64,000 nucleotides of DNA, taken from NCBI GenBank assembly GCA_029243485.1, contig JAQWRY010000086.1:496001-560000 (forward strand), read 5' to 3'. A model generated the notes under the pieces. It was given only the letters and a program-made list of their open reading frames with translations. It was not told the DNA's origin and did not search any database. A program made the translations under genes and the position numbers. Origin of the DNA: Candidatus Binatia bacterium (GTDB lineage: Bacteria > Desulfobacterota > Binatia > UBA12015). This document shows positions 54,120 to 55,243 of this stretch, one piece after another. How positions within the stretch are numbered: the stretch's first letter is position 1; every line of letters begins with the position of its first letter.

Positions 54120-54759
54120 TGCCCAGTGTCTGGATCGTCGTGCCCTCGTGGGCGTATTGGAAAGATCCGCTGAAGCTCCAGCCCTTGCGGGAAATGTACT
54201 GCGCGACGTTTCTCCAGGATCGGATTGCTGGATTGACGGTCGAGTTGGCGAATCTTCGGGTTGCGGTCGACGGGGGCGGCGCGACCGAGATCCCCGAATC
54301 CGACGTCTACTTCTACTGGGTCATGAAGTCGGCCGATGCGTTGGGGGTCTACGATGTCGTTCGCGGCCTTCGCCCAAAGTACCCGAAGGCGCTGCATTTC
54401 GGCGGTGGAAATCACGTTGGCCGTTGCACCGAAAAGGCCTTCAGGGAGTTCGACGTCTCGTTCGTGGCGACGGCGGAGGAGCTGCTCGTGCGGGCACGGA
54501 CTTGGGCAGCGGGCGGCTGCAGAGCGTCTATCGTTCGGCGGAGCGCTTTCACTTTTCGGACTACGGACACGCTCGACGCGAGTTCCTGCCCGCGGCGCGG
54601 ATCGTGAACGACCAGCACTTCTCGCAGGGTTGCAGCTTCGGCTGCCGGTTCTGCGTCTACAACAACGCCGAAGCCTACGGCATCCAGTGGATCGACTACG
54701 ACCTCTCGAAGCGGAGGTACTGGGGGGGGACGTTGGTTAGTCTCGCCCAAATTGTTTAG
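54119..54759 (+). pseudogene. Cobalamin-type radical SAM gene, frameshifted and truncated by an inverted-repeat element
   Basis: The first frame (54119-54607) has an N-terminal Rossmann-like domain, MPSVWIVVPSWAYWKDPLKL, then FHFGGGNHVGR-like sequence, typical of B12-binding-domain radical SAM proteins. At about 54500 sequence coherence moves to the next frame, which reads GSGRLQSVYRSAERFHFSDY, then FSQGCSFGCRFCVYNNAE, the CxxxCxxC radical SAM cluster motif. The coding sequence stops at 54759 inside the 116-bp inverted repeat and nothing after it resembles the rest of the barrel. At least 150 residues are therefore missing. The gene is a decayed part of the epimerase/PhyH cluster. Confidence 0.7.
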
Positions 54760-54839
54760 TCGTCGGTCTGACGCCAACCGATGTAGAAGCGCCAGCTGGA
54801 CGACTAAACAATTTAGGCGAGACTAACCAACGTCCCCCC
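54724..54839. repeat. 116-bp near-perfect inverted repeat (41-bp arms), MITE-like element
   Basis: The left arm (54724-54764) begins GGGGGGACGTTGGTTAGTCT, and the right arm (54799-54839) is its reverse complement with one mismatch in 41 bases. The loop is 34 bases. Looser pairing continues outward (TACTGGGG to CCCCAGTA, 54718-54850). The element breaks the radical SAM gene and ends one base before the stop of the selenoprotein gene. Its arms do not carry attC core sites or a known IS end, and no obvious target duplication is seen. It is either a miniature inverted-repeat element or an exceptionally large terminator. Confidence 0.8.
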
Positions 54840-55178
54840 TCACCCCAGTAGGTCGGTGAAGAGGTCTTCGTTGAAGCCGACGATGACGGTTTTTCCGCTG
54901 CGGATCGTCGGAGCGCGTAAGTTGCCAGTCGGGCCCAGCATGGCGTCGACGACGTCCTTGGGCGCGGAGCCTCCGGCGAACTCGCTCACCTTCTTTCCCT
55001 TGGCGACGACGATCTTTTTCGCCGCCTTGGCCATCGCGGCGGCGTCCTTGCGACCGAGCTTTCGGCTCGCAGGAATCGCCTCCTTGGGTTCAATGTTCTG
55101 AGCGTCCAAAAACTTGGACGCGCGGGTGCAGGACATTCAACCCTTGCGGGAATAGTACCAGTCTACTTTGCCAGCCAT
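54840..55178 (-). CDS. ArsC-like selenoprotein with UGA-encoded selenocysteine (UxxC motif)
   Basis: This 112-residue protein has a thioredoxin-like fold as in ArsC. From the ATG at 55178 the frame reads WYYSRKG then TGA (55137-55139) then MSCTRASKFLDAQ; the downstream part, LGRKDAAAMAKAAKKIVVAK and GPTGNLRAPTIRSGKTVIVG, belongs to the ArsC (seleno)protein family. The UGA falls exactly at the redox Cys position, giving Sec14-x-x-Cys17. A GGAGGG ribosome-binding site supports the start at 55178, while the ATG directly after the UGA has none. A SECIS-like hairpin lies downstream of the UGA. The role is a redox or arsenate-type reaction; the substrate is unknown. Confidence 0.88.
55102..55121 (-). 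promoter_or_regulatory. Bacterial SECIS hairpin for the selenoprotein gene
   Basis: On the minus strand, GCGTCCAA and TTGGACGC form a perfect eight-bp stem with a GTTT loop. The loop G lies 24 bases after the UGA codon, within the 16-37-base window of bacterial SECIS elements, and is the first loop base as the consensus requires. It lies inside the coding sequence, as usual for bacteria. Confidence 0.8.
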
Positions 55179-55243
55179 GGAGCCCTCCGAAGTTGCTCGG
55201 AGATACTCGGTCCACGCTATCTGTGCAACGACGGAACCTCCCC

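Follow-up and report, generated by a model that had tools for sequence, protein, structure and literature searches.

A member of the ArsC (seleno)protein family in Candidatus Binatia with a predicted selenocysteine at an in-frame UGA

Selenoproteins of the kind analysed here are already in print. In the available part of a 2026 review (PMC13188914), the family NF041106 is listed as 'Arsenate reductase-like protein' with the motif UxxC and is credited to the Global Ocean Sampling paper (PMC2398784), the available part of which gives 42 sequences of 'Arsenate reductase 2' (cd03032) with the motif UxxC. The arsenate reductase ArsC is described in the available text of PMC3169414 by its classical motif HX3CX3R and, for the Escherichia coli enzyme, by the arginine triad Arg60, Arg94 and Arg106/107. 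Given that the family and its motif have been catalogued in PMC13188914 and PMC2398784, as far as these sources were available, the gene reported here adds one more ordinary member to a family already known.

The window, i.e. the whole stretch of 64,000 nucleotides of the Candidatus Binatia bacterium genome that was analysed, contains on its minus strand a reading frame (55178->54840) that runs from ATG to TGA (54840-54842) and is interrupted solely by an in-frame TGA (Table 1). Reading through this codon gives 112 residues with the N terminus MAGKVDWYYSRKG-U-MSC and the motif U14-M-S-C17, i.e. UxxC as listed for NF041106, and the product, with Sec written as Cys, matches NF041106 ("ArsC family (seleno)protein") over positions 1-107 of the 107 in the model. 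The initial annotation had read the in-frame TGA as selenocysteine at the redox position of a UxxC motif, and the family match over its cut-off together with the identity of this codon in the family bears this out.

Table 1. Features of the selenoprotein gene and its surroundings, in window coordinates
Feature	Position	Strand	Evidence
ArsC family selenoprotein gene (NF041106), 112 aa	54840..55178, stop TGA included	-	NF041106 110.2 bits vs cut-off 85; 46-84% identity to 30 relatives
In-frame UGA, codon 14, predicted to be read as selenocysteine	55137..55139	-	same motif codon is TGA in 74/74 family loci, window's included
Cys17 codon, putative resolving residue of UxxC	55128..55130	-	Cys in 68/69 distinct proteins, Ser in 1
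Ribosome-binding site GGAGGG, upstream of ATG at 55176-55178	55183..55188	-	read directly off the sequence
SECIS hairpin 5' arm (GCGUCCAA; DNA GCGTCCAA)	55114..55121	-	sequence, folding, rule fit, family recurrence
SECIS apical loop GUUU (DNA GTTT), G first = 24th nt after UGA	55110..55113	-	nt 24 is G in 54/60 distinct genes
SECIS hairpin 3' arm (UUGGACGC; DNA TTGGACGC)	55102..55109	-	sequence, folding, rule fit, family recurrence
Palindromic repeat, 54-nt arms 89% complementary	54721..54842	.	arms at 54721-54774 and at 54789-54842; extends as far as the stop codon

The TGA could also be a true stop, in which case the gene would start at the ATG at 55134-55136 and encode a Sec-less protein of 98 residues or be a dead relic. 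This ATG directly follows the TGA, the mechanical open reading frame under table 11 begins there (54840-55136, 98 aa, N terminus lost), as the initial annotation had anticipated for an ordinary gene call, and AAGGG, a weak Shine-Dalgarno-like run at 55141-55145, lies 4 nt ahead of it. The statement that this ATG has no ribosome-binding site was thus slightly overstated, and that of a good site at the upstream start holds (GGAGGG). However, the residue after Sec is Met in just four of 69 distinct proteins, the window's included, and the internal ATG is therefore no general start; moreover, conservation includes codons ahead of the TGA, the predicted fold has its first strand (E7-10) upstream of this codon, and the codon is TGA at every family locus examined and never TAA, TAG or a Cys codon. 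We therefore give termination at this codon hardly any chance of being the right reading, and consider it highly probable from sequence comparison that the gene encodes an NF041106 member in which Sec is inserted at UGA codon 14 to give a thioredoxin-like Sec/Cys redox protein.

The family counts behind this reading come from two kinds of search. Among genomes drawn from the window's phylum and class, NF041106 is over its cut-off in 16 of 297 and 30 of 148, respectively (3 shared, 43 in all), and every match over the cut-off holds one internal TGA; the class search included 14 genomes of the taxonomic family to which the window belongs, of which four (G000, G389, G390 and G387) have the gene over the cut-off and ten do not. 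A genome-contig scan gave 31 family loci, all with TGA (31/31), the record titles of which (MAG labels) include Deltaproteobacteria, Myxococcota, Binatia, Gammaproteobacteria, Pseudomonadales, Planctomycetota and Spirochaeta; at five of these loci the genes are identical to ones from the searched phylum and class genomes. Loci L036-L040, which are below the cut-off, are left out of all family counts, and an internal ATG was taken as the start of L021 by the script, which affects no TGA count. The initial annotation had made its reading depend on Cys or Sec at this position in homologues, and all 74 family loci that were examined, counting that of the window, have TGA there, in keeping with this reading. 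A Cys form occurs in none of the 69 distinct proteins found in the search of the window's phylum and the one genome-contig scan. In an alignment of 31 of 32 possible rows (the window and the genome-contig loci with L058 omitted, and no loci from the phylum and class searches) W7, Y9, R11, G13, Sec14, Cys17 and R88-A-P90 are invariant; residues on both sides of the TGA are therefore conserved as protein. The single UxxS member (L032:1477-1821, minus strand) reflects either that the resolving Cys is not absolute or an error in a draft base.

Matches that lack a TGA are all below the cut-off: L039 and L040 in the phylum search, and eleven rows and one fragment of 28 positions in the class search. 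Of the two of these that were read, L040 scores best against the Spx/MgsR model (70.5 bits, cut-off 75.05), and L039 has, ahead of the matched stretch, an in-frame stop with a UxxC-like context. Separately, L036:1486-1830 (UTTC) and L037:104-445 (USTC) are Spx/MgsR-like and contain an in-frame TGA, with 72.7 and 74.0 bits, respectively, against the TIGR01617 cut-off of 75.05; they represent a possible Sec-containing Spx-like subfamily, and the 19 sub-cut-off rows of the class search with one TGA may be of the same kind.

In bacteria, the hairpin that directs Sec insertion is described by the bSECIS rules, which are quoted in the available part of PMC13188914 as a loop of 3-9 nt, a stem of 4-16 bp, a G within the first two loop positions, a distance of 16-37 nt from the UGA and a stability of <= -7.5 kcal/mol. 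Applied by script, these rules, as quoted there, all agree with the hairpin GCGUCCAA-GUUU-UUGGACGC (55121->55102) in the window gene, which has a loop of 4 nt with G first, a stem of 8 bp, a UGA-to-loop distance of 23 nt and, for the hairpin alone, -11.6 kcal/mol, which speaks for the SECIS element that the initial annotation had proposed to search for in 55080-55178. The eight-base-pair stem and the loop opening with G were also described correctly, but it is the loop G and not the stem that is found 24 nucleotides downstream, the stem itself starting at nucleotide 16. A fold of -16.3 kcal/mol (z = -3.29) was obtained for the 49 nt from the UGA, a stability reached by none of 200 dinucleotide shuffles, and for the 99 nt of 55080-55178 the fold has z = -2.47 with two of 200 shuffles as stable; the best rule-fitting hairpin was matched in 11 of 2000 mononucleotide shuffles. 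Scanned with Rfam at the gathering thresholds, the window gave no matches and hence no SECIS support from that source.

A hairpin at the equivalent place recurs in the family. Among 60 distinct genes it occurs in three registers (34, 19 and 7 genes), with at least five contiguous pairs in 53 genes and fewer in seven, five of which have just three; nucleotide 24 is a base other than G in six genes. A strict rule (no bulges, <= -7.5 kcal/mol) is passed by 33 of the 60 genes; of 3372 control positions within these genes 274 pass, and of 1200 shuffles 33. The summed stem length for 59 of the genes is 376, whereas over 300 synonymous recodings it averages 181 and never exceeds 213, and 24 of these 59 genes depart from the synonymous null when taken singly (p <= 0.05), the window gene with p = 0.01; L058, which has an undetermined base, is counted among the 60 genes and omitted from this null. 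In 27 of the 34 main-register genes, 90.7% of pair cells are paired, a level reached by none of 500 shuffles and compared with <=44.4% in slid registers. For the same 27 genes, the covariation score was reached by one of 500 shuffles, three pairs are changed on both sides, a number equalled in 26 of 500 shuffles, and the count of further pair types was equalled in 169 of 500. In all of these statistics the genes are related by descent and the counts are not independent trials; nine loci (L089-L091 and L093-L098) that are included in the TGA and motif counts are not part of the hairpin statistics or of the survey of neighbouring genes. In total, the hairpin recurs in the family beyond the synonymous-codon null, though not strongly in each member.

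The genome encodes the machinery for decoding this UGA. SelA (544.6 bits, C86:164965-166293), SelB (348.8 bits, C86:166353-168242, directly after selA), SelD (285.4 bits, C47:88313) and a tRNA-Sec (75.6 bits, C86:250416; tRNA-SeC with anticodon TCA according to ARAGORN) are each over their cut-off, and the prediction that the organism encodes SelA, SelB, SelC and SelD thus proved correct. RF01852 has one further match above its gathering score, at 49.8 bits, which is a tRNA-Leu according to ARAGORN. In the class, selA is over its cut-off in 29 of the 30 genomes with the family as compared with 94 of the 118 without it (Fisher p = 0.028, uncorrected for descent); the sole family-bearing class genome without a detected selA (G390) is a draft of 87% completeness.

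Other genes of the same genome may also encode Sec. An in-frame TGA, one in each case, is present in five of 13 AhpC/TSA matches (L112, at G000:C74:3621; L113, at G000:C11:62706; and those at C86:699639, C18:19706 and C18:12414 of G000). The two of the five that were read show HWUPYC and SWUGC and reach no NCBIfam cut-off over the stretch of 190 residues scanned. Based on these in-frame TGA codons and their contexts, further selenoproteins are likely in this genome.

The predicted fold of the product is thioredoxin-like, with Spx and ArsC folds nearest to it. In an AlphaFold2 model based on 31 sequences, with Sec entered as Cys, the mean pLDDT is 83.3 and the pTM 0.71. The best Foldseek match in the PDB is Spx (6gho, E 7.2e-04), which stands alone at E <= 0.001; by VIA-align the ArsC-related 3gkx (Z 9.1, rmsd 2.5 over 87 residues) is tied with Spx 3ihq (Z 8.8), and with a TM of about 0.55 at this Z of 9.1 the fold match is moderate. 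Sequence-profile matches in the PDB are 2m46 (E 1.6e-07) and Spx 1z3e (E 3.7e-06). In Pfam nothing is over the cut-off for the protein, Glutaredoxin scoring 17.8 bits as compared with a cut-off of 22.9.

One interpretation of these data is that the protein is a true arsenate reductase in which Sec replaces the catalytic Cys of ArsC. The family name and the fold agree with this, the arsenate-reductase structures 3rdw (Z 7.8) and 3f0i (Z 7.6) are among the fold matches, and arsenate-reductase selenoproteins with UxxS have been published (available part of PMC1088965). However, neither PF03960 nor TIGR00014 is listed for the protein at E <= 10, and although HMMER filters may drop matches with E > about 0.1, neither cut-off was reached. 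Moreover, in place of HX3CX3R the window protein has Ser10, Sec14 and Thr18, and at the family loci His is found at -4 in 36 of 65 and Arg at +4 in none of 65. The R-A-P of the family, present in 69 of 69 distinct proteins, aligns with the R-R-P of Spx in the profile alignment, and the residue before the presumed cis-Pro is therefore Ala; we take the Arg before the cis-Pro to be the equivalent of Arg94 in ArsC. Finally, PF03960 has a partial match (25-78 of 79) elsewhere in the same genome, at C18:28633. We regard arsenate reduction as very unlikely, and because these features are missing, the sequence data make a Sec/Cys thiol-disulfide oxidoreductase the likelier function. The description "ArsC-like" in the initial annotation is thus appropriate as a family label and for the fold and inappropriate if understood as arsenate reductase.

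Alternatively, the protein may not be an enzyme but may bind RNA polymerase and act, like Spx, as a redox switch, here a selenium-dependent one. Its best relatives in the PDB by profile and by fold include Spx, and the profile alignment places its UxxC on the Spx CxxC. Against this, the protein scores 19.0 bits with the Spx/MgsR model TIGR01617, the cut-off of which is 75.05, and from the sequence we judge such a role to be quite improbable.

Combining these data, we suggest the following scheme for a thiol/selenol oxidoreductase: (i) SelB with Sec-tRNA-Sec would bind the hairpin at 55102-55121 in the mRNA, (ii) selenocysteine would be inserted at UGA codon 14 and translation would run on to the TGA at 54840-54842, and (iii) the product, a small protein, would adopt a thioredoxin-like fold of the Spx/ArsC kind, in which Sec14 immediately precedes helix 1 and Cys17 follows one turn on. 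Most likely, Sec14 would then attack a disulfide or another oxidised substrate, a Se-S bond would form as Cys17 resolves the intermediate, and the protein would be regenerated by thioredoxin, glutaredoxin or a low-molecular-weight thiol. The sequence data show the reading frame, its family, the Sec machinery, the conservation of UGA and UxxC and the recurrence of the hairpin, whereas Sec insertion in vivo and the redox chemistry with its reductant and substrate are inferred from them; taken by itself, the redox chemistry is probable.

The surroundings of the gene are no guide to its function. In a survey of open reading frames within 3.5 kb at 65 loci (many with just 1.5 kb of flank) and in the window, the largest cluster of neighbours comprises five loci, two of which are copies from duplicate genomes; given that no neighbour recurs in more than five loci, context is of no help for function. 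The core of the palindromic repeat that reaches the stop codon (54727-54840, about 114 bp) gives 91 match rows in the genome, which were merged by eye into about 40 places, several of them at contig ends, and none in the 13 other searched genomes of the same taxonomic family. This repeat seems to have spread recently and has no role in the Sec mechanism; its own loop would lie too far from the terminal TGA to act as a SECIS under the spacing quoted above. Across the repeat, at about 54120-54728 on the plus strand, there is a broken gene end with GCSFGCRFC, which has a frame change near 54490 and ends at the repeat. We take this gene to be radical-SAM-like; the part of it that was scanned has no Pfam match, and L051 and L106 also have relatives of it on the downstream side of their selenoprotein genes.

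The gene supports decoding of UGA as selenocysteine in Candidatus Binatia bacterium, and a plain gene call would lose its active-site residue. With TGA at all 74 loci and in records of several phyla, the family may serve as a marker of genomes that decode Sec. That Sec is kept so strictly also makes it a fair case for asking why Cys does not take its place: the lack of a Cys form among the 69 distinct proteins opens the possibility that the family is obligately Sec-dependent, either by carrying out chemistry in which Cys cannot replace Sec, e.g. reduction of a very stable oxidised thiol or action on a selenium-specific substrate, or as a selenium-gated Spx-like redox switch. We consider this dependence unlikely.

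In comparison with known systems, the window protein resembles ArsC (PF03960, TIGR00014) and YffB in the broad fold and differs from ArsC arsenate reductase in its family matches and in the residues at the HX3CX3R positions. To Spx/MgsR (TIGR01617; 1z3e, 6gho) it is profile-related and similar in having a thioredoxin-like fold with the redox motif at the start of helix 1, and it differs in having Sec for Cys and R-A-P for R-R-P and in its score with the model. From the NF041106 family we found no substantive difference, the window member ending at the palindromic repeat, and in its match to the full model, its UxxC, the position of its UGA and its length it is alike to the members of that family.
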